39,794 nt of DNA from a virus. The notes below the pieces were generated by a model. It made no database searches and was not told the origin of the DNA. It was given only the letters and a program-made list of their open reading frames with translations. This document shows positions 10,770-34,924 of this stretch, one piece after another (positions within the stretch are counted from its first letter, which is position 1; each line of letters begins with the position of its first letter). Both the position numbers and the translations under genes were made by a program. The stretch spans positions 1 to 39,794 of the IMG/VR virus record IMGVR_UViG_3300046509_000004, one strand, 5' to 3'.

Positions 10770-11843
10770 ATGATCCTCGGCTTTCTCCTAGCCATTTGCT
10801 TCAACCCATATTCCTATTCCGCCGCTACTAATCCACGTTGGGCCTTGTTAGCTTTAGCTCTACCAATAGCAATCTGGTTTCGATCACCTAAGCATTGCAC
10901 CCCCTTACACCTTGCAGGCATAGTATTTCTGGCATGGGCCGTACTATCTCTCACCTGGACGCCAAACCTTTTAGACGGGTACAACTCGACAATTCAGTTG
11001 TTGATCGTAGCGGTAACATTCGTTCTTGGCGCGCGGCTCCCGACACTACGCCCAACGTTTCTTGGTTTGGCATTGGGGCTTACCCTAAGCAGTCTGATCC
11101 TGATAAGCCCGCTGAAGGAACTACATCCGATAATCGAGATAAGCCATGAAGGGCTACTTGGTAATCGTAATATGCTCGCGGAAGCAGCGGCACTAACGGC
11201 GATAGGCTGCATTAGCTACAGGCTATGGTGGACGATACCAGGACTACTACCGGCAATAATAATCCCAAACGCACGCGGAGCCTTGGTAGGATTAGGGGCC
11301 GGTTTGCTCGCCTGGATGTGGTCACGCTCAAGAACGTGGACTTTATTGCTTGCGTTATTGAGCATCTGTGCAGTTCTCATATCGACCATGCTAAGGCCGC
11401 TCACAGTCGATATGCGACTGGATATGTGGACCGACACGATTAAAGGGCTAACGCTATTCGGGCATGGCATTGGTTCTTTCAGGTATCTATTCCCCTTCCT
11501 CACCCATTCATTCGACGGCGCGTCCAACGTTGTCGATCACCCCCACAATGAACTACTGGAAATCTGGTTTGAACTCGGTGCAGTCGGACTATGCCTATAC
11601 GCGGCTATGGTCGCCATTGCCTTTAGAACTGCGGATATTGCTTCGCGTTCTGTCATGGCTGGGTTTATTGCTATCGGGTGCTTTGCGTTTCCCTCACATG
11701 AACCTGTTACGGCGTTTATTGGGGCGCTTGTGCTTGGTCATGCTGCTAGGAATGGGCTGCCTATACGCAGTTTGTTTGAACCTGTCCGACTGGCATTACG
11801 CACAAGGCTTCAATCTCACATTGCCTCCGAAGGACAGGGTTGA
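10770..11843 (+). CDS. Wzy / O-antigen ligase-like integral membrane protein, 357 aa
   Basis: About ten transmembrane helices with the Wzy_C signature in the large periplasmic loop: GHGIGSF, then VVDHPHNELLEIWFELGAVGL (about residues 231-275). Arg residues before it (NARGALVG, MRLDMWTD) are also typical. Members polymerise or transfer O-antigen units in the inner membrane. Phages carry such genes to alter host lipopolysaccharide, as D3 wzyβ does, blocking superinfection. The start has no clear ribosome site. The 3' end overlaps the next gene by about 146 bases. Confidence 0.85.
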   Translation: MILGFLLAICFNPYSYSAATNPRWALLALALPIAIWFRSPKHCTPLHLAGIVFLAWAVLSLTWTPNLLDGYNSTIQLLIVAVTFVLGARLPTLRPTFLGLALGLTLSSLILISPLKELHPIIEISHEGLLGNRNMLAEAAALTAIGCISYRLWWTIPGLLPAIIIPNARGALVGLGAGLLAWMWSRSRTWTLLLALLSICAVLISTMLRPLTVDMRLDMWTDTIKGLTLFGHGIGSFRYLFPFLTHSFDGASNVVDHPHNELLEIWFELGAVGLCLYAAMVAIAFRTADIASRSVMAGFIAIGCFAFPSHEPVTAFIGALVLGHAARNGLPIRSLFEPVRLALRTRLQSHIASEGQG

Positions 11844-12180
11844 GCAGTTCAGGCTAGCCAATCAGTTCTATCCATTGGACTGGCGCAACCGTTTAGCTTC
11901 AGCCGGTTTAATCTCAAATCTAGCTCTAGCCTCGAATGACCAAGGCTGGCTTAACGCAGCACAAATTGAAAACCGTAAAGCTTTAGTCACCGATGCTACG
12001 GATGCCACGTTAATACAGAAAGCTATCCTGATTGATCTGGCTTTTCATGACGATAAAGAGGCTGAAGTTTACTATCAGCAGCTAAAGCGGATAGATAGAA
12101 AATCCCCCATTCATGAATTGGTGGCGAACAGTCATCAACAGCAGGCCGAGCCGTCGCCTGCGATCCCTGACGGCAATTAG
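11698..12180 (+). CDS. Membrane-anchored TPR-like companion of the Wzy protein, about 160 aa
   Basis: One N-terminal transmembrane helix (CLVMLLGMGCLYAVCLNL), then a soluble helical region with repeated A..L.P / R..LA patterns (RLANQFYPLDWRNRLASAG, AAQIENRKAL) like the periplasmic TPR tails of Wzy/PglL-type enzymes. In many hosts this part is fused to the polymerase; here it is a separate overlapping frame. The frame is open from 11464, so the start is uncertain. No good ribosome site was found at 11698 or later ATGs. Confidence 0.6.
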   Translation: MNLLRRLLGRLCLVMLLGMGCLYAVCLNLSDWHYAQGFNLTLPPKDRVEQFRLANQFYPLDWRNRLASAGLISNLALASNDQGWLNAAQIENRKALVTDATDATLIQKAILIDLAFHDDKEAEVYYQQLKRIDRKSPIHELVANSHQQQAEPSPAIPDGN

Positions 12181-12190
12181 GAGCAACACG

Positions 12191-12799
12191 ATGAACAAAC
12201 GTATCGTAGTTGGCCTTGCCATTGCAGGGTCAATTGGATTGTCAACTCTAGCCTTCGCTGCCGGTCTATTTCCGGATTATCCCATTGTTGGTGGCGCTAC
12301 CTACTGTGCTGGTTCGTCCCAGTCAGCTACCGGTACGCTTATCGGTGCCATTACCGGTTGTCCCAACCAAGTCCCGGCTGGCCCGACTATTCTAACGGGC
12401 ACTGAGAAAATCCCGGCTGATACCGGTCTGGCCAGCGGTGCCAATCCGCAGACCGTCTTGATCCCGATGGCTGCCTTGAACGCGCTACCGATTCAGTTTG
12501 TATCGGTTAGCTCTGCCAACCCGGCAAATATCAGTGCGACCAATACCAGCGGTGGCGTATGTTACAACTCGACAGTCACAATCACTGCGGCAAATGTCAC
12601 GTTGCCAGCCAGCCCGATTGACGGCGAGCAATATGTAATTTGCTCCAACTACACGATTACCGCGCTGGCCGTGTCGGCTCCTGCCGGTACGACGCTATCG
12701 GTTACGACGCCCACAGTTCTGACGGCATCCACGACCGTGCCCCAGGGCTATACGTTTATCTACAATGCAGCCTCAACCAAGTGGTTCAAGCTCCGCTAG
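12191..12799 (+). CDS. Exported protein with Sec signal peptide, 202 aa
   Basis: MNKR, a hydrophobic core (residues 5-20), then an A-F-A cleavage site near 24: a textbook Sec signal peptide. The mature part is beta-rich, Thr/Ala/Ser-rich with four Cys, and resembles phage fibre or decoration domains (DGEQYVICSNYT, YNAASTKWFKLR at the end). GGAGC precedes the ATG. It belongs to a cluster of three exported proteins. A periplasmic or surface role is inferred; it may be a virion part despite the signal. Confidence 0.75.
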   Translation: MNKRIVVGLAIAGSIGLSTLAFAAGLFPDYPIVGGATYCAGSSQSATGTLIGAITGCPNQVPAGPTILTGTEKIPADTGLASGANPQTVLIPMAALNALPIQFVSVSSANPANISATNTSGGVCYNSTVTITAANVTLPASPIDGEQYVICSNYTITALAVSAPAGTTLSVTTPTVLTASTTVPQGYTFIYNAASTKWFKLR

Positions 12800-12807
12800 T
12801 CTAACTA

Positions 12808-12844
12808 GGGCCGTCACTTGCCCCCCGGTGACGGCCCATATTTT
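12808..12844 (+). terminator. Strong hairpin terminator
   Basis: GGGCCGTCAC (12808-12817) pairs perfectly with GTGACGGCCC (12828-12837), with a 10-base loop, followed by ATATTTTC. It lies 9 bases after the stop of the exported 202-aa gene. The U-tract is short and interrupted, so partial termination is likely. Confidence 0.75.
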
Positions 12845-12856
12845 CGAGGTTAGAAT

Positions 12857-13291
12857 GTGGCCGATCAATACAATTATATTTTCAAGTTTCCTAACCAAAC
12901 AGCCGCGTTTATTGATCCGGTTATAGGTCCATATTTAAATACACCAACCAGACTGTTAACCCCATTATGGGTTTATGATTTACGTCAAGGTGGGGTGAAT
13001 ACGCTCCTAGGTTATTGGGCAATAATTATCTCGGATGGACCGGACGCAACATTAGCAAATAACTCCCATCTGCAATTTGCCATTGATAGAGACGCATCAA
13101 CCGCATCGGCAAATGGCATTACCGGCTGCACGATTAACAACATACCGGATGAATTACTTGAAAATCTGCAAATTGTTATGGTGTATGGCGGCTATATAGA
13201 AAACGGTCTTATACCGCCGCTGCCTCCGAATGTAATTACTTATCTTGGTAATCCTGTTACGAATAATGCCGGAAAATACATAACCATCTGA
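12857..13291 (+). CDS. Hypothetical beta-rich protein, GTG start, 144 aa
   Basis: Not recognised. A soluble protein without a signal peptide, with aromatic and Pro-rich stretches (YNYIFKFPNQ, LLTPLWVYDLRQGG). Probably a structural or fibre-associated protein by position between exported proteins. GAGG lies 8 bases before GTG 12857; the ATG two bases earlier is out of frame. Confidence 0.7.
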   Translation: MADQYNYIFKFPNQTAAFIDPVIGPYLNTPTRLLTPLWVYDLRQGGVNTLLGYWAIIISDGPDATLANNSHLQFAIDRDASTASANGITGCTINNIPDELLENLQIVMVYGGYIENGLIPPLPPNVITYLGNPVTNNAGKYITI

Positions 13292-13298
13292 GGCATCC

Positions 13299-13676
13299 AT
13301 GAAATATCTGATAGTACTTTTTTTGTTTGCCTTCATGGCATCGGCGCAGGCACAACAGCCTGTCATTACCCAGCCTTATGCCGTGGTTAGCGTAAATGCG
13401 TCGGGTACGATTGCCTCAACTGGGGTTTTTCAATCAATCTGGACGGCTTTAACAACCAATCCAAACTCTCCGAAGCGGGCAAGCTGTACGGTGCAGAATA
13501 ATGGCACGCATACGATGTATGTGTTTTTTGGCCCAATAGCTTCGGCCACTACAGGAACCTCCGTTGCGTTGGCAGCCGGTCAAGCAGTTAATTGTTCTGT
13601 CGGGGGTACTGTGTTGCAAGACCAGGTTTCGATTACTGGCACCTCAACGGACGCATTCTTTGCGGCGCAGCAATGA
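13299..13676 (+). CDS. Exported protein with Sec signal peptide, 125 aa
   Basis: MKYL start, hydrophobic core, and a cleavage site A-Q-A at residue 19. The mature part is a small Ser/Thr/Ala-rich beta sandwich-like domain with two Cys (ASCTVQNN, VNCSVGG) suited to one disulfide. It resembles phage decoration or fibre-tip proteins in composition only. GAGGCATCC precedes the ATG. It ends in an ATGA overlap with the next fibre gene. Confidence 0.75.
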   Translation: MKYLIVLFLFAFMASAQAQQPVITQPYAVVSVNASGTIASTGVFQSIWTALTTNPNSPKRASCTVQNNGTHTMYVFFGPIASATTGTSVALAAGQAVNCSVGGTVLQDQVSITGTSTDAFFAAQQ

Positions 13677-14440
13677 AACACCCCATGCTTAAAAAACCTG
13701 AGTTGTTAAAACGCAATTTGCTGCTAGGCTTGGGGGCTGCTGCATTAGTAGCTCCAGCAACGATGGCGTTGGCGCAGACAATTCAGCCTACATCAGGGGG
13801 GGGCTCTAGCACGCTAACGGCCAATTCAACAGCAACAAGTGGGTTCACCGCAAATCAATATCTCTATTCCGATGGATCGAAGCTACAGGCTGGAACGTCT
13901 AACGGCACGGGATCATTGGTTGGTACTACTTCGCCAACACTCGTTACGCCGAATATCGGTGTTGCGACTGGTACGTCACTTGCTCTCTCTGGCGTAATCT
14001 CCACTGGCGTTGGAGGGTATAGCGCGCCAGCCGTGACTATTGGGGAGGCGGGGACTGGTATATTTTTAGCAGCCACTACTCGTCTTCAGTTTGTTCTGGG
14101 GTACAATATCGTAGGTGATTGGAACTTTAATTCTGGTGCACCTGTTTTTAAGCTTACTGGCAACGGGGTTGATGGCGGTGCTAATTCGTCGTTCATACTT
14201 GGTGACAATTTACACGGCACGTTTGAACTGCTGTTCTGGACCGATGCGACCAACAATATCGCAAAGCTTCAAACCTTCAATGGCGGCAGCGATTATGACC
14301 ATGTACTTAGTTTTCAGTCCTTGGGGGGGACCGTAAAACTTCCAGTGAAGGTGGATTTGTCTTCTTTGCCGACAGCAGACCCTCACGTTGTCGGTCACGC
14401 ATGGAGTAATCTAGGCATTGTTACAGTGAGTGCCGGATGA
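13673..14440 (+). CDS. Tail-fibre-like protein with signal peptide, 255 aa
   Basis: A basic start (KKPELLKR), hydrophobic core and A-L-A cleavage near residue 35 form a signal peptide. LKRNLLLG is a weak Tat-like motif with KR instead of RR. The mature part has phage-fibre features: Gly/Ser/Thr repeats, SPTLVTPNIG and VIGEAGTGIFL-like strands, and HVVGHAWSNLG near the end. Coupled by ATGA to both the exported 125-aa gene and the tailspike-like gene that follows. Confidence 0.75.
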   Translation: MKHPMLKKPELLKRNLLLGLGAAALVAPATMALAQTIQPTSGGGSSTLTANSTATSGFTANQYLYSDGSKLQAGTSNGTGSLVGTTSPTLVTPNIGVATGTSLALSGVISTGVGGYSAPAVTIGEAGTGIFLAATTRLQFVLGYNIVGDWNFNSGAPVFKLTGNGVDGGANSSFILGDNLHGTFELLFWTDATNNIAKLQTFNGGSDYDHVLSFQSLGGTVKLPVKVDLSSLPTADPHVVGHAWSNLGIVTVSAG

Positions 14441-15582
14441 CCTCTCCCGCTGGCATTTTTACAAACTCGGACGCTATTCATCCGACTGTTGCACTTTTGA
14501 AAAAAGATGCGACATTTCAGCTTAAGCGCGATTTTGGCGCTAAGGGTGACGGCTCTACAGATGACACAGCGGCGCTAAACGCTTTCATAGCCGCCGTTAA
14601 AGCTGTCCACGGAACCGGAATTTTAGACTTAGGCAGTTATGTCTTTAACGCGCCTCTTGATTTCAGCACCGCGTATGGGTGCAGTTTTATCGGCTGCGGC
14701 ATCGGCGGCAGTTTAGGTTTGAACAGTTACCCGAACACCCGACTTCTGTGGAAGGGAAATAATACGGACGCTTGGCTGAATTTAAGCCCTTGCAGAGATA
14801 CGCAGATTGCCAACTTGAACATAACGGCATTTTCGTCGTCATATCCGGGTGTAGCAGCAGTTGATATTGATGATCCTATTTCTAACAATGTTCAATTATC
14901 GAACCTTGGTATTGCTCCTGCTTCTGGCGGAACGCTAACTTCGGGAATTAGAATATCTAAAACGGCCATAACCGGATGCGATCTGCACAGCGTCGAGCAT
15001 TGCTATGTTGCAAATTGCACGAATGCGTTTGATCTAGCCGACACCTTCGGAGAATCCAAAGGCCATAGTCTTTATCGAAACACGTTTTCCTATTGCACCA
15101 ATGGGATTAATCAGGTGAACGGTTCCTTTACCGCAAGGGGAACAAATTTTTCTCACAACGCTATTGACGTTAATTTGCAGGGGATAGACGATTATATTCT
15201 TTTAACAGAAACTCAGAGTGAGGCAGCAGGCAGATTTCTTTCATTTACGACCGCAAGCACTTTTGCATGGGCCGTGACCATTAGTGGTGCGCGCCTCGCA
15301 GCAAATGGCTTAAACGCGGACGGAAAATATATTATTTTCAACGCATCCGGTCCTCTTAATCTTATCGGATGCGACTTTGCCAACGGTGGGTATTATGCGC
15401 CCTGGAGAATTTACGCTGATGATGGCTATGCCGGGTATGGTTCGGTAGGCGCGTATGGTTCTGTATTTCCCAACAACACAATTTTCTCCGGGTCAGCCAC
15501 GCAAAGCAGGACAACGATGCTCAACAATAATTACATCAATTCTTCGGGCCAGTGCGTTCAACTGCCAAACAGTGTGCCGTAA
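14437..15582 (+). CDS. Pectate-lyase-type beta-helix tailspike, 381 aa
   Basis: The motif FGAKGDGSTDDTAALNAFI at about residues 34-52 marks the pectate-lyase-3 beta-helix fold of phage tailspikes, which bind or cut surface polysaccharide. The remainder is a repetitive right-handed helix (Asn/Gly/Ser turns). Unlike the later tailspike it has no signal peptide and no recognisable head-binding domain; the fibre-like partner encoded just upstream may supply attachment. ATGA overlap with that gene. Confidence 0.8.
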   Translation: MTSPAGIFTNSDAIHPTVALLKKDATFQLKRDFGAKGDGSTDDTAALNAFIAAVKAVHGTGILDLGSYVFNAPLDFSTAYGCSFIGCGIGGSLGLNSYPNTRLLWKGNNTDAWLNLSPCRDTQIANLNITAFSSSYPGVAAVDIDDPISNNVQLSNLGIAPASGGTLTSGIRISKTAITGCDLHSVEHCYVANCTNAFDLADTFGESKGHSLYRNTFSYCTNGINQVNGSFTARGTNFSHNAIDVNLQGIDDYILLTETQSEAAGRFLSFTTASTFAWAVTISGARLAANGLNADGKYIIFNASGPLNLIGCDFANGGYYAPWRIYADDGYAGYGSVGAYGSVFPNNTIFSGSATQSRTTMLNNNYINSSGQCVQLPNSVP

Positions 15583-15754: not shown

Positions 15755-17056
15755 ATGGTTTGGTTTCCTGAGAAAGCAATCCCGTTATTCCAGCCTGCGC
15801 CTTACAAGGTCATGTACGGCGGGCGCGGCGGTTCTAAATCATGGGATATGGCTAGGGCTATCTTATGCCTGGGTGCCCATAAAAAGCTGTTTGTGGTCTG
15901 TGGCCGTGAAATCCAACGCTCAATCAAGGATTCGGTTCATAAGCTTCTAAGCGAGCAAGTTTCTGATTTAGGGCTTGACGATCATTACGAAGTCCAGGAA
16001 CAGAAAATAATAGGCAAGTTGAACGGCACTGAAATAGTCTTTGTAGGTGTCAGAAATAACATCACCTCGATCAAATCAATGGAAGGCATTGATATATTCT
16101 GGCTAACGGAAGCGGTGCATGTTTCAAACCATACATGGGATACGTTGCTTCCTACTGTACGACGCGACCCCCCGTTTGGGCCGTTTGGGCAAGGGTCTGA
16201 GGTGTGGATTGACTTTAATCCTGATCTTGCCAGCGATGATAGTTATAAGCGTTGGGTGCTTGACCCTCCGACTGGAACGATGGTTTCTGAGGTCAATTGG
16301 AGAGATAACCCCTGGTTTCCTGAAATCCTCCGCAAGCAATTGGAGGACATGAAATCCAAGGACTATGATAACTATCTGACGGTTTGGGAAGGCAAGACCA
16401 GACGCAGTTTGGATGGAGCGATATATGCCAAGGAATTATATGCCGCCATTACTGAAGGCCGCATTAGCCCATCCATCCGATACGACAAATCTAAAGGCGT
16501 TACCGTCAGCTTTGATCTTGGACGATCTGATATGTGCGCGCTATGGTTCATGCAGCAAATTGGCATGGAACATCACGCAATTGATTTCTACGGAAATACT
16601 GGATTTGGAATAGACCACTACATCGAAGAAATACAGAAACGAAAACACCTCATAAAGCAAATCATCCTGCCCCATGACGCGCAAAACCACCACCAAGCAG
16701 CGTCAAAGACCATCGAAAGACAAGTGCGGGATATCTACCCAGGCCAAATCGTCAAGATCGCACCCAAAGTCTCAATCGTTAATGGCATCAATGCAGTTCG
16801 TCAGTTATTCCCTAGGCTTTACTTCTCGGAAGGTAATACCGCCGATGGAGTTCTTGGGCTTCAGCATTACCAATACGGGGTCAATCCAGAAACTCACGTT
16901 AGAACTAAAGAACCCTTGCACAATTGGGCCTCGAATCCAGCCGACTCGCTTAGGTACTACGCCGTAGAAATCAAGGAAGGCAATAAGCCTCCGAAGCAGG
17001 AAGAGTATCAAGATGAATATTCGACCGGCAACGAGGCAACGGCGTGGATGCAATAA
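15755..17056 (+). CDS. terL: Terminase large subunit, 433 aa
   Basis: The packaging motor and headful nuclease. The ATP-binding P-loop GGRGGSKS is at residues 22-29. The Walker B/catalytic segment IDIFWLTEA is at 112-120 with Glu119. The RNase-H-like nuclease has acidic residues at D254 (FDLGRSD), D308 (PHDA) and D397 (NPADSLRY). Length is normal for the family. The ATG follows the coiled-coil gene by 7 bases. The portal gene follows directly. Confidence 0.95.
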   Translation: MVWFPEKAIPLFQPAPYKVMYGGRGGSKSWDMARAILCLGAHKKLFVVCGREIQRSIKDSVHKLLSEQVSDLGLDDHYEVQEQKIIGKLNGTEIVFVGVRNNITSIKSMEGIDIFWLTEAVHVSNHTWDTLLPTVRRDPPFGPFGQGSEVWIDFNPDLASDDSYKRWVLDPPTGTMVSEVNWRDNPWFPEILRKQLEDMKSKDYDNYLTVWEGKTRRSLDGAIYAKELYAAITEGRISPSIRYDKSKGVTVSFDLGRSDMCALWFMQQIGMEHHAIDFYGNTGFGIDHYIEEIQKRKHLIKQIILPHDAQNHHQAASKTIERQVRDIYPGQIVKIAPKVSIVNGINAVRQLFPRLYFSEGNTADGVLGLQHYQYGVNPETHVRTKEPLHNWASNPADSLRYYAVEIKEGNKPPKQEEYQDEYSTGNEATAWMQ

Positions 17057-19318
17057 ATGAGGTCCGACGATAATATTCTGGAGGGTATGACAGAGGACGA
17101 GAAGATAGTTCAAGAGGCTAAGGACCGTTTCAAACGCTGCCAGGATTGGGAAGGTGATTTTCGTAGGAATTACATTCTGGATGTGAAGTTTGCCAACGGA
17201 GACTCAGTAAACGGCTGGCAATGGCCGGACGATATGAGGAAGGATCGAGAGAAGAACAAACGTCCTGCACTCACGATCAATAAGACCGGCCAATACGTCA
17301 AGCTGATTACCAACAACGCCCGGCAGAACAAGCCTTCCATCAACATTAAACCCATGGGGCAGGAGGCCAGTTACGAAGCCGCGCAAATTTATGAAGGCTT
17401 GATACGGCATATCGAATACATCAGCAGCGCGCAAAACGTTTATGACGAGTCTACCGAAAGCCAAGTTGAAGGTGGTATTGGTTATTGGCGGGTTATCCAG
17501 AAATACACCGATGACGATTCATTCGACCAGGAGCTAATGATTGCCCCGGTGCGGGATGCACTCAGTGTGTTTTTGGATTGCGATATAAAGCAGAAGGACG
17601 GTTCCGACGCTCGCTATGGATTTGTCTTTGACGACATTCCTGAAAAAGAGTTTGAACGGCAGTATCCAGACGTTGATATTCACGATGTGTACGGTACTGG
17701 AACCGGGCTGAATGAAACCGACTATTGGGTTAGGGACGGGAATGTTAGGGTAGCCGAGTATTACCGTATTCTCGAAAAGGACGACAAGCTAATCCATCTT
17801 GAAGATGAAAAGGGAGAAGTAGCGGAGTTCAGGGTTTCCGCCATTCCCGAAAAGTACCGCAAGAAATTTGAGGAAGCTGGCGAGAATTTCAAATCTCGTG
17901 ACATAACAAATAAGCAACTTGAATGGTACAAGATTGCCGGTTCAAAGATTATCGACACACGAAAGCTAAAGGGAAAATATATCCCGCTTATTCGGGTTGT
18001 CGGTGTCGAACGGGTAATTGAAGGGAAACTTGAGAGAAAAGGCCATGTGCGTCAGCTTATGGATGCACAGCGGATGTATAATTATAATACCAGCGCGCAA
18101 GTTGAAAGCGCGGCTATGGCTACCAAAACCAAGTGGATTGTTCCTACCGATGCCATAGAAGGGAACGAAGTAGCCTGGAATAACATGAACCGCGATAATG
18201 CGGCATACTTGACTTACAAGCATGTGGACGGTGACGGGCAGCCAATGCCCCCTCCACAGCGTATTGATCCGGCAAGCTCTACTCCTGCTTACTTAGACGG
18301 AATGAAAATTGCTGCTGCTGAAATGGAAATGGTTTCCGGTCAGCAGGCAGGACAACAGCAAAACCCGGCTATTGAGCGTACCCCTGCCGCTATTGATGCT
18401 AGGGAAAGGCATGGAGAAACAGGCACTTATCACTTCATTGATAATCTGGCCATTGCAATCAGGCAGACGGGACGGGTTATTCTCGATCTGATACCGCATA
18501 TTTACGATACCGAGCGGGTCATTCAGATTTTAGGTAAGGACGGCTCTCAGACCAGGGTTCAAGTACAGCCAGACGCCAAGGAAGCCTATTCGGAACAGGA
18601 AGAACGCGACGACATAACCAAAGTTATGTTCAATCCGAAAGTAGGCAAGTACGAAGTTGAATCCGATGTAGGCCCTGCCTATGCAAGTCAGCGACAAGAA
18701 GCATGGAACGCCTTTGTGCAGATTACCACAGGTGCGCCAGAACTGATTAACGAGATTGGCGATCTGATGTTCCAGTCGGCGGATTTCCCGCTGGCGGACA
18801 AGATAGCCGAGCGTATCAAACGTAAAATTAGAGCCGTCACGCCTTGGCTATTGGACGATCAGCCCGGTCCTGTCATTGCCCAATTGAACAAGCAGATACA
18901 ATCCAGCCAGTCTCAGATTTCGGAATTGCTACAAAAGCTTGCCGAGAAAACTATCTCACTTAAGGGCAAGGACGAAAAACGGGATATTGACGCATCCAGG
19001 GCCGAAACAGAACGTCTAAATACCGTTGGCAAGGTTATCAAGGATTTCCATGAAGTGGGATTGGCGCATCGTGAATTGGATCAGGAGGCCGATCAGACGT
19101 TGCACAGTATGCACATGGACAATATCGACCAGATACAAGAGGACAATCAATCGGCCATTGATGCTCAATCCGGCGATAACGAGAATAGTCAGCCTCAATC
19201 AAATGACAATTCCTTCCACCCTGAAAAGATCGGTGCAGAGCAAGCCCCTGACGGTCATTGGTATGTCGCACATCATGGCAATCCAGGTAAATATCTAAGG
19301 GTGCATCATCATGGCTGA
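17057..19318 (+). CDS. P22-like portal protein, 753 aa
   Basis: The dodecameric ring through which DNA enters and leaves the head. The N-terminal part (DWEGDFRRNYILDVKFANGD, then RPALTINKTGQY, NNARQNKPSINIKP) and QVEGGIGYWRV are typical of P22-type portals. Residues 560-680 are helical and Gln-rich (barrel region). It ends in a short APDGHWYVAHHGNPGKYLRV-like segment rich in His. The ATG follows the terminase stop directly. It overlaps the next gene by 8 bases. Confidence 0.95.
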   Translation: MRSDDNILEGMTEDEKIVQEAKDRFKRCQDWEGDFRRNYILDVKFANGDSVNGWQWPDDMRKDREKNKRPALTINKTGQYVKLITNNARQNKPSINIKPMGQEASYEAAQIYEGLIRHIEYISSAQNVYDESTESQVEGGIGYWRVIQKYTDDDSFDQELMIAPVRDALSVFLDCDIKQKDGSDARYGFVFDDIPEKEFERQYPDVDIHDVYGTGTGLNETDYWVRDGNVRVAEYYRILEKDDKLIHLEDEKGEVAEFRVSAIPEKYRKKFEEAGENFKSRDITNKQLEWYKIAGSKIIDTRKLKGKYIPLIRVVGVERVIEGKLERKGHVRQLMDAQRMYNYNTSAQVESAAMATKTKWIVPTDAIEGNEVAWNNMNRDNAAYLTYKHVDGDGQPMPPPQRIDPASSTPAYLDGMKIAAAEMEMVSGQQAGQQQNPAIERTPAAIDARERHGETGTYHFIDNLAIAIRQTGRVILDLIPHIYDTERVIQILGKDGSQTRVQVQPDAKEAYSEQEERDDITKVMFNPKVGKYEVESDVGPAYASQRQEAWNAFVQITTGAPELINEIGDLMFQSADFPLADKIAERIKRKIRAVTPWLLDDQPGPVIAQLNKQIQSSQSQISELLQKLAEKTISLKGKDEKRDIDASRAETERLNTVGKVIKDFHEVGLAHRELDQEADQTLHSMHMDNIDQIQEDNQSAIDAQSGDNENSQPQSNDNSFHPEKIGAEQAPDGHWYVAHHGNPGKYLRVHHHG

Positions 19319-23329: not shown

Positions 23330-23752
23330 ATGGCATATAAATCTACGCTTCCTAGTTCAATTCAGACTTTGCTTCCCGGTCCAAGACTGGCCGATGTTTC
23401 TTCATTGTCTGGTTCTGTTGCCAATGGCATGGGAAACAACGTTAATGGCGCATTGACCGCTTCCACTACTCAGACGCAAGCCGGTGGGACGTTGCTTACT
23501 TACGGCATTAATTCCGTTTTGAATGCCAATGGTTCAGATGCGGTTACTATGCCAAAGGCGGCTTCCGGCACTATACTTATTCTGGTCAATCATACTGGAC
23601 AAACCATCCAGTTGTTTCCTGCTGTAGGAGACACCATCAATGCTGCCGCTATCAATGCCGCTGTGACGGTGGCAACGGCTACCACTTCCATTTATATTTG
23701 TTCGGCGGGTTCCGCTCAGTGGTGGGGTGGCGCAATCACCAATGAAGCCTAA
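23330..23752 (+). CDS. Beta-rich virion-associated protein, 140 aa
   Basis: Not firmly recognised. Ala/Thr/Asn-rich beta protein with GTILILVNHTGQTIQLFPAVGDTINAA and a Trp-rich C-terminus, similar in style to the exported 202-aa protein (YVICSNYTI then YNAASTKWFKL) but without a signal peptide. Probably a head decoration or fibre-type protein. ATG overlap with the gp10-like gene. Confidence 0.7.
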   Translation: MAYKSTLPSSIQTLLPGPRLADVSSLSGSVANGMGNNVNGALTASTTQTQAGGTLLTYGINSVLNANGSDAVTMPKAASGTILILVNHTGQTIQLFPAVGDTINAAAINAAVTVATATTSIYICSAGSAQWWGGAITNEA

Positions 23753-25275: not shown

Positions 25276-25664
25276 TTTCAGTTGTTGCGACAAACTTTCC
25301 ACCGCAGGCCACTCCAATAGTCGATCAAAGTGGCAAGATGACAACGCCGGGAATGGCGTTCTTTCGGGCACTTTATGATCGTACAGGTGGAGGAAACGGT
25401 TTAGTCAATCAAGTTTTTACCGGTCCTGGTGGCGATCTAGCGGCGGATTGGAATTATCTAACTAGCTCTGGAAATTCCACGTTGCCTGCTCTTACTGGTG
25501 GGCAGATGGTCATGGTGCAGAATAGCAGTGGATCGTTTGCAAATATAAATGCCCCTGCTGGAGCCTCTATAGATGGCGTTCCGCTTTATACTTTAGCTGA
25601 TACCAAAATGCAGATATTCTGGTTCATATCCTCATCCATTATCGTATCGACGCAGCTAGGATGA
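25272..25664 (+). CDS. Tail-region hypothetical protein, 130 aa
   Basis: Residues 10-45 (PPQATPIVDQSGKMTTPGMAFFRAL) match a frequent phage protein encoded right after the gp10-like gene; such proteins are minor tail proteins. The C-half is beta-rich (LPALTGGQMVMVQNSSGS). Function unknown. ATGA overlaps link it to gp10 and to the SET-domain gene. Confidence 0.75.
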   Translation: MISVVATNFPPQATPIVDQSGKMTTPGMAFFRALYDRTGGGNGLVNQVFTGPGGDLAADWNYLTSSGNSTLPALTGGQMVMVQNSSGSFANINAPAGASIDGVPLYTLADTKMQIFWFISSSIIVSTQLG

Positions 25665-26437
25665 ACGATTTTAATCAAGCTATTGCGGAGTATGGTTTTA
25701 CTCCTGATATTGTAAAGTCTATCAGTGAAAATACTTCTGATCTTGTTGTAATGCCAAGTGGACTTTACAAATTTATTGTAGGAAATTCTAAAATTGAAGG
25801 TCATGGAATTTTATGCGTTGCGGATATTAGGGAAGGGGAGATTATTGGACCGGCTAGAATAAATGGAAAACGAACTGATTTAGGGAGATTTACAAACCAT
25901 GATAAATTTCCGAATGCAAAAATGGATATGGTAAATTCAGATTTGATAAATTTGGTATCTATTGGGAATATTTCTGAGGGAGAAGAAATAACAATAGATT
26001 ACCGGCAGGCACTCTCTTTACAGCGGCAGCCAGTAAAAAGGGAACATATATTTGAGATAGAAAAGGAAATGTTTAAGTTTCCTCAAATAGAGATACCTGT
26101 CAGACATTATTTTACACCGGGTATTTATGCGAGAGAAATTACTGTCCCGGCTGATGCGTTGATTACCGGAGTTATTCACAAATACCCTCAGATAAACATT
26201 CTTTCCAAGGGAACGATCAGGGTTTCCATTGACGAAGAAATCCGCGAAATCTCCGCACCTTATACAGTTATATCAGCGGCAGGCATCAAGCGAATTGCTT
26301 ATGCGGTTACGGAATGTGTTTGGACTACCATCGTTCACACATTCAAGACCGATGTTGCCAAGATTGAAAAAGAGTTCTTTGCCTATACCGAACAAGAATA
26401 TCAAGATTTCGTAAGAGAGAAACAATGTCAGGCATAG
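25661..26437 (+). CDS. SET-domain / cupin-like fusion protein, 258 aa
   Basis: Residues 36-115 carry the SET lysine-methyltransferase fingerprints: SKIEGHGILCVADIREGEII, RFTNHDKFPNA (the RxxNHxxxPN motif) and EGEEITIDY with the catalytic-type Tyr114. Residues 143-232 match a phage cupin-like domain (IPVRHYFTPGIYAREITVPA, INILSKGTIRVSI, CVWTTIVHT). SET enzymes methylate Lys using S-adenosylmethionine. The 5' half of the gene is clearly more AT-rich than its neighbours, suggesting separate acquisition of the SET part. The target could be a virion or host protein. ATGA overlap upstream. Confidence 0.8.
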   Translation: MNDFNQAIAEYGFTPDIVKSISENTSDLVVMPSGLYKFIVGNSKIEGHGILCVADIREGEIIGPARINGKRTDLGRFTNHDKFPNAKMDMVNSDLINLVSIGNISEGEEITIDYRQALSLQRQPVKREHIFEIEKEMFKFPQIEIPVRHYFTPGIYAREITVPADALITGVIHKYPQINILSKGTIRVSIDEEIREISAPYTVISAAGIKRIAYAVTECVWTTIVHTFKTDVAKIEKEFFAYTEQEYQDFVREKQCQA

Positions 26438-27093
26438 CGGCGGCAATCATAGGTTCAGGCGTTATAGGCGCTGGAGCATCCATATTTGGTGCTATGGCGC
26501 AAACCAATGCATCCAAAAATGCCATTGCAGCCCAACAGGGCATGTTCAATCAAGCGGTTGGTTATGCCTCACCGTTTATTAGTGCAGGACAAAGCGCGCT
26601 ACCTACTTTGGAAGGATTGATTACGCCGGGTGCAAATCAAACAGCCTTGTTAAAACAAACTCCGGGCTACCAGTTTGCTAATGATGTGTCGCAACAGTCG
26701 GTTTCCAATCAGGGCACGGTGACTGGTCTAGGTGGGAATACGCTTTTAGCGGGCTCGAATGCCGCTACTCAACTTGCATTAGGAATGGCATGGCAACCTA
26801 CCGTTAATGCCTTGCAAGGACTGGTTAGCACCGGATCGAATAATGCCGCTGCCTTGGGCGGTCAAGCAGTGCAGACCGGCGCTAACATTGGAAATAGCCT
26901 AACAGGAATTGGCAATGCCCAGGCAGGTGCGGCTACTTCAGTTGGAGCTAACCTGGGTAATTCTCTCACAAGTGCGGCGCTGTTTAATAAGCTACTTGGC
27001 AATAATATGTATGAAACGGCTGCGGATGCTGGTAAGGGTGGCCCTAGTGCTATCGGTACAGGCAATTATAATTTCCTTGATGCACAGGCGTAA
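26425..27093 (+). CDS. P22 gp7-like DNA ejection protein, 222 aa
   Basis: A hydrophobic, Gly/Ala-rich N-terminus (IGSGVIGAGASIFGAMAQT) then LTPGANQ-like and Asn/Gly/Gln-rich helices (NNAAALGGQAVQTGANIGNS repeats). Typical of small ejection proteins that leave the particle with the DNA and form a channel. It is the first of three such genes (with 27981 and 29116). It overlaps the SET gene by 13 bases. Confidence 0.75.
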   Translation: MSGIAAAIIGSGVIGAGASIFGAMAQTNASKNAIAAQQGMFNQAVGYASPFISAGQSALPTLEGLITPGANQTALLKQTPGYQFANDVSQQSVSNQGTVTGLGGNTLLAGSNAATQLALGMAWQPTVNALQGLVSTGSNNAAALGGQAVQTGANIGNSLTGIGNAQAGAATSVGANLGNSLTSAALFNKLLGNNMYETAADAGKGGPSAIGTGNYNFLDAQA

Positions 27094-27108
27094 CAAAGGA
27101 GATAGCAA

Positions 27109-27318
27109 TTGCATAAAATTATAAATCTATGTTTTACAGTTATTGGAATAATAAGTCTTGTAGTTTCAATTTTACTATTTGGATTTGCAGAACTTTCCCG
27201 TCATGGCTCGCATGTAGCCATAGAAATTATACAGCTTGGTTTATTGTTCCTAATTATTTCAATTTTGTTATTATATCCCTTAATAAAGTTTTTTGTTATT
27301 TCAGATAATAAGGATTGA
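27109..27318 (+). CDS. AT-rich two-helix membrane protein, TTG start, 69 aa
   Basis: Two hydrophobic helices (about residues 5-27 and 37-62) joined by a short SRHGSHV loop. TTG start at 27109 with AAAGGAG 8 bases before. AT-rich compared with neighbours, which fits a late-acquired gene in the ejection-protein operon. Function unknown; membrane immunity or holin-like action is possible. Confidence 0.65.
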   Translation: MHKIINLCFTVIGIISLVVSILLFGFAELSRHGSHVAIEIIQLGLLFLIISILLLYPLIKFFVISDNKD

Positions 27319-27320
27319 TT

Positions 27321-27437
27321 ATGGTTCCTAGCAATGAACGACTCGCCGAAGTTTACAATCCAAATTATCGACAATTGATAATAGTTTGGCCGCTTGTGTG
27401 GGGTCATTTAGAGAATGGCGGCTGGGTTTTGCATTAG
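27321..27437 (+). CDS. Small hypothetical protein, 38 aa
   Basis: Found in the gap. Starts 3 bases after the previous stop with AAGGA upstream. It has an aromatic C-half (VWPLVWGHLENGGWVL). Not recognised; it may be a soluble or peripheral membrane peptide. Confidence 0.5.
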   Translation: MVPSNERLAEVYNPNYRQLIIVWPLVWGHLENGGWVLH

Positions 27438-31485: not shown

Positions 31486-32937
31486 ATGAAGCATAGATTG
31501 TGCTGCCTTATAATCTTTCTATTCGCTACGTTTCCGGTTCATGCAGCAACCACGCTGCTGCCGCCTGGAATGCAATGCTTTACCGACGCGACCGGAGCCG
31601 TTATTTCCGGTTCTGTTAATATGTTTTATCCGGCAACTACTTCTCCTAAGCCAACATGGCTGGATGCAAATCAACTCGCGCTAAACAGCCAACCAATCCA
31701 ATTAGACGGAAATGGTTGTGCCACTATATACGGTATAGGGTCCTATCGCCAGCAGCTATATGATGGTCCGGTAGTCGGTGGAAACACCAGCGGCAATTTG
31801 CTTTTTGATAAGATAACCACAGATACCAGCGCCTATAATGCGGTGTTTTGGGCTGGTCTTTCCGGTGGTACGGCAAATGTCATTACGGTTGTCGATCCAG
31901 GCTTTAATGCGACCGATGGTACCGTTATAAACTTCACGGCTCTAGCGACTAACACATCCTCAACCACTATTAACCCTTCGGGTTATGGCGTTATTTCTGT
32001 CCTAAAGGATACTACTTCCGGCCCTGTATCTTTGACAGGTGGCGAGATTATCCAGAGTAATATTATTTCGGTTGTCTATCGTTCTTCGGATAATGCATTT
32101 CACCTGCTCAATCCGCCTATTCAATCTGCCAGCGGCGCGGTTTCCCCCCTTTGCGGCGCTTCTGGATTACAGATTACCAATGGATCAACGCCTAGTTCAA
32201 TTATCTCTGTGACGGCCAATGATGCGGTAATGACAAGTGCTGGAGGTTTGGTTCAAAACCGTGCAAATATTTCTCTAACGAACATAAATATTACTACCGG
32301 AACATCTGCTTCGACAGTCAACGGTATGGATGGTGAAGCACCAGGAACGAGTTCTTGGCTTTATATTTTTCTCATAGACAACGGTTCGGCATCAGCCGGT
32401 CTTGTTTCTCTAGCTTCAGGAAATGGTCTAAATCCGTCTCTGCCGAGTGGTTATATTTATAAATGTCTTATGGGTGCTATGCTGGTTGACGGCAGTGGCA
32501 ATCTTATGAGGACACTGCAATCTGGCATTCATGCCCAATATGTCATTACGACTTCAACTAATACCGCTGTTGTTCCAAATATCGTGAACGGGACGCAAGC
32601 TACATATTCTACAACTTCCCCGACTCTTGCGTCAGTAAGCGTGAGTGGGTTTGTTCCTCCGATAGCCACGGAAATAAATTTGCTCGTTACAAATGCGTGG
32701 AAAGGCAACACCGCAACTGGCGTTCTTGTCGCTCCTAATGTCAGTTATGGCGGCACCAATAACGGCCCGCTTGGGAGTGCAGGACAATCGTGGCCTTATT
32801 CGGCGTTTGCAACGGTTGGAATTGTTGCGTCTTTCAACATGGTATTAGAGGGAACAACAATTGCCTGGGCCAGTACCGCCGCTGGCGGGGCCATTTCTTG
32901 CTTAGGATGGACCGTTGGAGGCGTCAATGCGAATTAA
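31486..32937 (+). CDS. Tail fibre with head-binding-like domain and Sec signal peptide, 483 aa
   Basis: Residues 1-20 are a signal peptide (MKHR, hydrophobic core, cleavage V-H-A). Next comes a normal phage fibre N-domain: LPPGMQCFTDATGAVISGSV, MFYPATTSPKPTWLDANQ, like the head-binding domains of P22-family spikes. The remainder is Ser/Thr/Gly-rich beta structure with several Cys. The N-domain should bind the tail hub in the cytoplasm, so the signal peptide is unexpected. The next gene's ribosome site (GGAGG) lies inside its end; overlap 11 bases. Confidence 0.8.
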   Translation: MKHRLCCLIIFLFATFPVHAATTLLPPGMQCFTDATGAVISGSVNMFYPATTSPKPTWLDANQLALNSQPIQLDGNGCATIYGIGSYRQQLYDGPVVGGNTSGNLLFDKITTDTSAYNAVFWAGLSGGTANVITVVDPGFNATDGTVINFTALATNTSSTTINPSGYGVISVLKDTTSGPVSLTGGEIIQSNIISVVYRSSDNAFHLLNPPIQSASGAVSPLCGASGLQITNGSTPSSIISVTANDAVMTSAGGLVQNRANISLTNINITTGTSASTVNGMDGEAPGTSSWLYIFLIDNGSASAGLVSLASGNGLNPSLPSGYIYKCLMGAMLVDGSGNLMRTLQSGIHAQYVITTSTNTAVVPNIVNGTQATYSTTSPTLASVSVSGFVPPIATEINLLVTNAWKGNTATGVLVAPNVSYGGTNNGPLGSAGQSWPYSAFATVGIVASFNMVLEGTTIAWASTAAGGAISCLGWTVGGVNAN

Positions 32938-34924
32938 ATATATTGCAATCATTCTCTTATTGATGACGGCTCCTGCCTTTGCTCAGACAGGCACCTCCCA
33001 AACTCCTGCCCAATTAAATAATGAAATAAATTCAAAATTTACCGATCAACTGATTGGAGCTATTACACCATATACCTTACGCCAATTAACTTTGGATATG
33101 GTGGCTTCTACAGGACAAATATTTAATATCACAGGGTTTGGTGCGGTTTGCGATGGGACGACTGACGATTATACGGCAATTCAAAATGCTATAAACAAGG
33201 CTCAATCTACATCGGTAACTTCCGGGGGATTACCTTTTGGTACTCCGGTAATTCAGTTTCCAGGGGCTATTTGCCGGATCGCATCGGCTTTGAACATTAC
33301 CGGCCCTCTTGTGTTTGATGGTGGTGGCAGCGGCAATGCAGTGTTGCTTGTCGATAATGCAACTGGCGGATTAGTATTTAGTCCTAGTAGTCAATACAAT
33401 CAGAGTGTTGTTAAAAACCTAACTATTAAAGCTGGACGTACTCATGCAGGTACAGCATTCAAATACAATGGCGTTGTAACTAGCAGTGCTAATAATCCTC
33501 AATTGCTTTTAGAAAATGTCCTGATTCGAGGGGATGGTACAAACTATTTTGATCGGGGTATTTACTTCGATAACGCTTGGGATGCAGTGTTTAATCATGT
33601 GACGCTTCTTGCCGATGGTGCTAGTTCGGCAACCTATTGGTCGAATGCTATCGAGATTGGAACGAATGTAATTGATGCGAAATTCAGCCAGGTATCTATC
33701 AACGGTGCGGTTCATGCTTGGAATATCACCGGAGCCCACGTCGAGGGCATCCGCATTGAACACTCGACTGCTATTGCTGTTAATTTCGGAGTGGTAGGAA
33801 CAACTTCGGTCGGCTCTCCTCATTTTACTGTTTTGGACTCCCATATCTCTGCCGCTACTACCAATGTTTCCCTGTCGGGTAGTTTTGCCCAAGTAATCAT
33901 CGGGCGTAACGACTTTTTTCTCCAATCCCAGGCCGGGTTTACAACACCAAATGGTGCCAAGGCCATAGATTGTCTTGCCTGCGGCGCAGTTACCATATCC
34001 GGTAATATTCTTGCTATGAATGATGTTGCGGCTACAGGAACAGTTGGCATTAAATATGACACGGGAACGTCTGACGTAAATGATGGCGGAAATACTCTGG
34101 CCGGATTTGCCACTGGTGTTTCTGTCGTCAGCGGAGTTACGGGAACGTATGCCGCAAGCACCTTCGATACCGTCACAACGCCAATTTCAAATTCTGCTCC
34201 AAGTACGTTCTTTTCATCAAATCAAACTATTTCTTGGGGTGGTGCTGGTGGAACTTCGTTTTTGAAGTGGATAGATACCGTCGCCAATAAAACTACAAAT
34301 TGGAATTACAATGCAGGAGTAGTATCATGGATTCGTAATGATGGAACAACGACAGGAGCCTCTCTGGATGTAGAGCATAGTGTCCTAAGTCTTGGTGGTT
34401 CTGGTGTCCTTGGAAGTCTATCATTAGGCAATGCAACCTCTGGAACAATCACTTTACAGCCGGTCGGAGGTGCTCTTGGAAATGTTACCCCTTCCTTGCC
34501 AGCCAATACCGGTATTATAGCCGAGACGAATTATGCACAATCATGGACAGGGTTACAATCGTTTGCTTCTATTGGTCTTGTTACGCTTGGCTGGTCATCC
34601 ACAGCGCCAACCATTGCATCAGGATTTTGTAGTACTGGCTCTCCTGTAACTGCACTTAGCGCGTCTAATGGAACGGCGGCTTTTGATATTCTTATCGGGG
34701 CGGCTACTTGCGGTTCTACTGGAACGCTTACAATGCCAACGGCAACTACAGGGTGGGTTTGTTCCGCTACGGACGTAACGACGCCAGCCAGCCATAACGT
34801 AGTGCAGACCGGAACGAATGGATCAACTACGGCTGTGGTTTTAACTGACTATTCCCGCACCGCTGGAACGGCACAGAACTTCCTTCCTGCCGATCATGTC
34901 CATGTAATGTGTACGGCTTACTAA
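32927..34924 (+). CDS. Pectate-lyase-type tailspike with Sec signal peptide, 665 aa
   Basis: Residues 1-20 are a signal peptide (MRIKY, hydrophobic core, A-F-A cleavage). Residues 27-65 form a known phage tail N-motif (LNNEINSKFTDQLIGAITPYTLRQL). A beta-helix follows, marked by FGAVCDGTTDDYTAIQNAI at about 73-91, which would bind or cleave surface polysaccharide. The C-terminal 120 residues resemble fibre tip domains and end HVHVMCTAY. ATG 32927 has GGAGG 5 bases before. TAATG overlap with the lysozyme gene. Confidence 0.85.
   Translation: MRIKYIAIILLLMTAPAFAQTGTSQTPAQLNNEINSKFTDQLIGAITPYTLRQLTLDMVASTGQIFNITGFGAVCDGTTDDYTAIQNAINKAQSTSVTSGGLPFGTPVIQFPGAICRIASALNITGPLVFDGGGSGNAVLLVDNATGGLVFSPSSQYNQSVVKNLTIKAGRTHAGTAFKYNGVVTSSANNPQLLLENVLIRGDGTNYFDRGIYFDNAWDAVFNHVTLLADGASSATYWSNAIEIGTNVIDAKFSQVSINGAVHAWNITGAHVEGIRIEHSTAIAVNFGVVGTTSVGSPHFTVLDSHISAATTNVSLSGSFAQVIIGRNDFFLQSQAGFTTPNGAKAIDCLACGAVTISGNILAMNDVAATGTVGIKYDTGTSDVNDGGNTLAGFATGVSVVSGVTGTYAASTFDTVTTPISNSAPSTFFSSNQTISWGGAGGTSFLKWIDTVANKTTNWNYNAGVVSWIRNDGTTTGASLDVEHSVLSLGGSGVLGSLSLGNATSGTITLQPVGGALGNVTPSLPANTGIIAETNYAQSWTGLQSFASIGLVTLGWSSTAPTIASGFCSTGSPVTALSASNGTAAFDILIGAATCGSTGTLTMPTATTGWVCSATDVTTPASHNVVQTGTNGSTTAVVLTDYSRTAGTAQNFLPADHVHVMCTAY

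Follow-up and report, generated by a model that had tools for sequence, protein, structure and literature searches.

A candidate cassette of Sec-exported fibre- and spike-type proteins beside the packaging genes of P22-like podoviruses

Virion proteins of tailed phages are assumed to fold and assemble in the cytoplasm, and we know of no tailed phage that makes its attachment parts outside the cell interior. Exported phage proteins are known from the host envelope, such as Lom and Bor of lambda and Llp of T5, and the coat proteins of filamentous phages are virion proteins made with signal peptides. Among tailspike modules, the XD domains of CBA120 TSP4 bind other tailspikes and assemble them (PMC8825819). 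We analysed a virus record of 39,794 nt (39.8 kb; hereafter the window), whose large terminase, P22-type portal, coat, head-closure protein Hc3 and ejection proteins support a genome of the P22-like podovirus type. Genes are named by their start positions.

Leaders in the window and in control families

10770-11843, + strand: membrane protein of the Wzy_C (O-antigen ligase) type (PF04932, E 6.4e-11), upstream of the cassette, with a partner gene that reaches to 12180
12191-12799, + strand: predicted exported protein of 202 aa with a signal peptide at residues 1-23 (12191-12259), a loop with paired cysteines, an IPADT module and, at the C-terminus (residues ~93-202), a beta domain like that of T4 gp10/TSP4
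12857-13291, + strand: leaderless small ORF with a GTG start, possibly a gene, lying between the exported genes
13299-13676, + strand: predicted exported protein of 125 aa with a jelly roll; residues 1-18 (13299-13352) are the signal peptide; Cys63/Cys99
13673-14440, + strand: predicted exported protein of 255 aa, fibre-like; residues 1-34 (13673-13774) are the signal peptide; fibre-shaft repeat TSPTLVTPNIGVATGTSLA, fibre-type C-terminus
14437-15582, + strand: tailspike of pectate-lyase fold (PF12708, E 1.1e-9), no leader, translationally coupled to 13673; internal contrast
15755-17056, + strand: large terminase (phrog_3717, E 2e-53), conserved in position; landmark downstream of the cassette
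17057-19318, + strand: P22-like portal (phrog_156, E 9e-103); landmark
23330-23752, + strand: decoration-like protein without a leader; internal contrast

A sequence-only reading had assigned signal peptides to 12191, 13299 and 13673. All three ORFs lie where that reading placed them and each opens with a Sec leader, in which a positive n-region, a hydrophobic h-region and an AxA-like site can be recognised and are kept across the families. The predicted leaders are MNKRIVVGLAIAGSIGLSTLAFA, cut before AG, in 12191; MKYLIVLFLFAFMASAQA, cut before QQ, in 13299; and MKHPMLKKPELLKRNLLLGLGAAALVAPATMALA, cut before QT, in 13673. Shine-Dalgarno-like sequences lie 6-8 nt upstream of 12191 (GGAG) and of 13299 (GAGG), and the start of 13673 overlaps the stop of 13299 (ATGA). 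Dual starts yielding cytoplasmic forms were considered and rejected, as no suitable downstream start was seen in 12191 or 13299. No convincing relatives of ORF 12857 were found.

Signal peptides were called over the 56 window genes with a heuristic detector rather than SignalP. It flagged the six proteins that had been proposed as exported, together with two small membrane proteins (11692 and 27109), and neither 14437 nor 23330, so that the two internal contrasts hold. When single proteins were shuffled, the detector still fired on 0-19% of the shuffled versions; a lone call is therefore weak, and weight was placed on families of homologues. Leaders were absent from the control families Hc3 (0/102), portal (0/50), TerL (0/36), needle (0/27) and decoration (0/16, the homologues of 23330), a total of 0/231. 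Further controls from the same loci gave 0/92 for tail accessory proteins, 3/68 for coat and 3/73 for ejection proteins, the three coat cases being Tat-like or similar leaders. The leaderless neighbours and the control families, at or near zero, exclude a composition artefact as the source of the leaders, as the sequence-only reading had argued.

Two observations were made alongside. Coat-like N-termini stand behind Tat-like twin-arginine leaders, for example MAVSRRSLFAVFAALVASPTIVKA, in cassette-bearing phages (L190, reverse strand; L198:4216-4791; L200; L222:14360-14662), and some of these seem truncated. In the window, the N-terminal half of ORF 25661-26437 is SET-domain-like by eye, and its C-terminal half is common to single-domain proteins behind Hc3 in related phages.

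Exported bacterial proteins favour even cysteine counts (PMC7678975). We compared cysteine parity in 1302 non-redundant genes; the p-values are approximate because the sequences are related. For proteins of at least 200 aa, even and odd counts stood at 21:1 among leader-bearing and 214:217 among leaderless proteins (Fisher p 9e-6), and over all lengths at 35:10 and 426:518 (p 2e-5). Short proteins alone gave no significant bias. Taken with the leaders and their conservation within families, this signature makes it very probable that the proteins are indeed exported.

Families, folds and position of the cassette

The family of 12191 was searched for in viral contigs with a degenerate DNA pattern for ExIPADTxLxxGxxPQT, which lies 39-97 residues from the start and is thus blind to the leader. 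A signal peptide was present in 28/28 genes matched, several of which recur almost unchanged in more than one sample; a search with the strict back-translation of 12191 gave no match. We define the 12191-type family by a leader, a Cys loop and the ExIPADTxLxxGxxPQT module, all of which 12191 contains. The IPADT residues are invariant in the family alignment and the C-termini are unrelated, and in one subfamily the Cys...Cys loop is conserved with a very variable length. The homologue in L187, a close relative of the window phage, is 71% identical to 12191. No family member matches Pfam; among PHROG families two have a match, each to a single member, and one of the two is annotated as 'tail fiber protein'. 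The only match in 385 alphaproteobacterial genomes covers just the variable C-terminus, and hence no prophage host was found there.

An AlphaFold model of 12191 (mean pLDDT 70.6) is confident only from about residue 100. Fold matches of this C-terminal domain at Z 7.4-9.5 were, StcE-type modules apart, all connector or spike domains of phages: CBA120 TSP4, T4 gp10, T4 gp9, a Klebsiella phage baseplate protein, the Pa223 capsid spike and a tailspike depolymerase, the best being of the T4 gp10/TSP4 XD type (Z 9.5, 2.5 A over 93 residues). StcE-type modules matched at Z 8.3 and 5.4, and the matches that follow have Z of 4.7 or less. A sequence relationship to XD-type domains was not detected, with no PDB sequence match up to E 1.

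Relatives of 13299 were located in L210, L215-L217 and L219-L223. A leader is evident by eye in every one, with 10 of 11 family loci above the detector cut-off, and the cysteine pair is conserved in most. The model of 13299 is a jelly roll (mean pLDDT 85.7) whose best viral fold matches are uncharacterised phage proteins and whose PDB matches are generic jelly rolls, including the PM2 spike and Ena appendages. We do not claim 13299 as an Ena pilin, as the similarity is near the jelly-roll background (Z 8.4 amid many jelly rolls) and there is no Pfam match.

For 13673 no full-length homologue was found, and it is free of cysteine. Its middle is a common fibre repeat, and most proteins bearing this repeat have no leader; those of L014, L064, L075 and L080 do carry one. 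The gene 3' of the 13299 homologue is likewise exported by prediction, usually with an overlap, in L210, L215, L216, L222 and L223, where 13299-like and 13673-like genes are neighbours. The genes that follow 13299 homologues often begin QTISP, QSIGP or QDIGP after the cleavage site, and 13673 begins QTIQP. None of 12191, 13299 and 13673 matches Pfam or PHROG, and with no Pfam domain the three were rejected as genuine enzymes. Family-wide leaders, cysteine parity and the folds and modules of the mature parts support the earlier description of an exported, fibre- or decoration-like cluster, and it is likely that these are structural proteins of the fibre or spike type.

The cluster had been placed in an accessory island. 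Its site is not a random accessory one: the position, upstream of terminase and portal, is conserved. TerL and/or a P22-like portal lies downstream in most loci whose contig reaches that far, across a gap of 0 to ~9 kb that is often below 2.5 kb. Clustering of exported homologues in related phages, which the earlier reading had suggested checking, was found both as runs and as shared order: the order of the trio is kept in L210, about four to six exported genes are consecutive in L217, L221, L222 and L223, and in the 41-kb record of L222 five exported genes run up to the terminase. In L187 the Wzy_C pair precedes the 12191 homologue, which is followed by another exported beta-protein and then by terminase and portal. 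Among isolates, Acetobacter phage phiAX1 (LC644973) comes closest in this habit, with an exported GH66 glucanotransferase (L004:27387-29312) that adjoins an exported fibre-like protein (26418-27383) in the structural block.

These data also bear on whether the proteins are decoys or cargo, that is, exported fibre mimics, acquired by recombination, that attach to the host's own surface or are released as traps for antagonists, with no role in assembly or exclusion. The highly mosaic C-termini and the changing content of the cassette fit such a view. A morphogenetic role is indicated instead by the conserved site next to the terminase, by the conserved gene order and by the association with main tailspikes that are themselves exported (below), and we consider decoys improbable.

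Two further observations concern neighbouring genes. At 10770-12180 the Wzy_C-type ligase gene overlaps a TM/TPR-like gene, and the same pair adjoins the 12191 homologue in L187; glycosylation of exported proteins by 10770 was rejected as a general rule, since among the loci examined the pair lies beside the cassette in the window and L187 only. An exported SPRY-domain protein (PF00622; L089:15851-16516) occurs in the tail module of a relative, and a similar exported protein in L223.

Predicted exported tailspikes and the possible use of the proteins

31486-32937, + strand: tailspike or adaptor; residues 1-20 form the signal peptide and are followed by a tailspike head-binding domain that has an additional pair of cysteines (C31, C78)
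32927-34924, + strand: predicted exported tailspike-like protein; leader residues 1-19, N-terminal anchor common to L089, pectate-lyase-like beta-helix
38205-38741, + strand: predicted exported, putative Cys/His hydrolase, not fibre-like; leader, five cysteines, no Pfam hit; similar exported protein in L086 (11146-11607)

The sequence-only reading had counted six exported proteins. Leaders were flagged on all six; 38205 resembles a Cys/His hydrolase by sequence and is probably a cell-wall hydrolase rather than a fibre, which leaves five fibre-like proteins. A viral scan for the anchor of 32927 returned the contig of L089 again and nothing else; L089 has an exported tailspike and no 12191 match.

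In a search with profile A4, the N-terminal domain of 31486 hit PDB entry 7eeq, a 'Tailspike head-binding domain', at E 8e-8. As to a beta-helix receptor-binding part, 31486 has no Pfam match and its PHROG match, phrog_17105, is unassigned in function; the neighbour 32927 is PF12708-like. Cytoplasmic homologues of 31486 (PAE2, MW202557 and others) begin directly with the head-binding domain, and in 31486, L086, L088, L089 and L096 the leader ends exactly where that domain starts. L086 is 61% identical to 31486 over the mature part, with an unrelated leader sequence. At least two cysteines occur in the head-binding domain of 8/9 exported copies (by eye) and of 1/~42 cytoplasmic ones, the exceptions being L111, cytoplasmic with the pair, and L096, exported without it. 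Five phages with a detectable head-binding tailspike were chosen solely for carrying the cassette, and in four of them that gene has a leader (two clear, two weaker). L226 and L229 were missed by the detector in the automatic table (low score; domain insertion) and their leaders were read by eye. The fifth tailspike, L225 in the phage of L221, is cytoplasmic and leaderless though the cassette is present.

The leader junction of 31486 with its cysteine pair and the even-cysteine bias are independent indications that export is real. They likewise bear on whether the leader might be an uncleaved hydrophobic peptide that docks the protein to virion or membrane, an idea that some long or weakly scoring leaders (L227, L226) would suit. 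The textbook n, h and c regions with AxA-type sites, the divergence of leader sequence with its character maintained, the start of cytoplasmic homologues at the expected cleavage point and the cysteine bias all argue against docking, which we regard as very improbable.

The exported proteins may act on the infected cell and not on the virion, as lectins or depolymerases derived from spikes that, from the periplasm or the cell surface, hide or cut back receptors, serving superinfection exclusion, the freeing of progeny from debris or the loosening of host polysaccharide. Lom and other exported phage proteins act on the host envelope (PMC12309495), a tailspike fold is found in WceF, a glycosidase of bacterial origin that modifies EPS (PMC7949094), modification of the envelope is suggested by the Wzy_C ligase gene pair upstream, and the structural block of phiAX1 encodes the exported GH66 enzyme. 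This is a serious rival to virion use. However, 31486, though exported, still has the domain for binding virion heads and sits where the tailspike gene usually does, 12191 bears a domain of the spike-assembly type, and many members have no recognisable enzyme domain; action on the envelope is possible, yet somewhat doubtful.

The head-binding domain retained by 31486 argues for virion use, and further support for a virion location comes from the gp10/TSP4-type domain and from the way in which cassette and main tailspike are coupled. That the proteins are virion components joined after export has, in our estimate, about an even chance. They would be synthesised in the cytoplasm and threaded through SecYEG; leaders, cysteine signature and family conservation lead us to infer that signal peptidase cuts the leader. 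The mature proteins would fold in the periplasm, often with disulphides, and would encounter completed heads, already filled with DNA, once lysis breaches the inner membrane, most likely for use as adhesive virion appendages or spike adaptors; 31486 and 32927 would follow the same export route as the trio. In vitro, the heads of P22 are known to join with its tail parts (Israel et al. 1967, as cited in PMC3741392), which makes late attachment to virions plausible.

The leaders, their family-wide conservation, the cysteine parity, the gp10/TSP4-type and head-binding domains and the conserved position were computed here; cleavage, virion attachment and timing at lysis are steps that we infer. 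The whole reading, in which P22-like podoviruses carry, ahead of terminase and portal, a conserved cassette of Sec-exported fibre or spike proteins that serve as virion appendages, we hold to be evenly poised. A little short of that, and put forward tentatively, is the view that a podovirus lineage builds adhesive appendages outside the cytoplasm, with Sec export, disulphide bonding in the periplasm and head attachment at the opening of the inner membrane in lysis, perhaps with modification by the window phage's own Wzy_C-type ligase. Counting against the whole reading are 13673, without full-length homologue or cysteine, the cytoplasmic tailspike of the L221 phage and L089 without a 12191 match. 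Export ahead of assembly is also unusual for tailed phages, and virions would stay unfinished until lysis.

If virion use is true, a widespread fibre and spike cassette with export signals adds a second compartment to phage morphogenesis, explains disulphide-bonded spikes and makes infectivity dependent on the host Sec and Dsb machinery. Should their target be the host envelope instead, they form a new class of factors, derived from fibres, that act in superinfection or modify the surface. In both cases a family that has neither Pfam models nor a matching isolate is opened to testing. The cassette would go unseen wherever automatic annotation cuts off or disregards the leaders of 'tail fibre' genes.

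Comparison with described systems

A literature search, with most subscription journals outside its reach, gave no account of exported tail-fibre cassettes. In a 50,697-record phage collection no isolate matched 12191, 13299 or three relatives tried, and single-protein searches of phage collections gave no match for 12191, 13299, 13673, 32927, two 12191 relatives or one L217 relative. The candidate cassette is carried by the window phage and by many relatives known just from environmental DNA.

Bacillus endospore appendage (Ena) subunits (DUF3992) share a jelly roll of similar topology with the 13299 model (Foldseek E 1e-3); the similarity is near the background noted above, and their function is not transferable. 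Like Lom and Bor of lambda and Llp of T5, the cassette consists of phage genes with export signals; it differs in encoding neither lipoproteins nor beta-barrels, in its packaging-gene neighbours and in its fibre and spike domains. A superinfection-exclusion lipoprotein or Lom type was rejected, as SPase I rather than SPase II is predicted and the modelled domains are beta-sandwich or jelly roll. Filamentous-phage coat proteins differ in belonging to another virus realm, in being membrane-anchored and in extruded assembly. The C-terminal domain of 12191 shares the fold of the CBA120 TSP4/T4 gp10 XD type, whereas 12191 is predicted to be exported, belongs to a podovirus, has the IPADT module in front and lacks a sequence match. 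Compared with P22-like/Pam1-type tailspikes (PDB 7eeq, 9vyg), 31486 is alike in its head-binding domain and main-tailspike gene position and differs by its Sec leader and cysteine pair, the homologues compared being mostly leaderless. The fibre and spike modules are known ones, and it is their delivery route that is unexpected.
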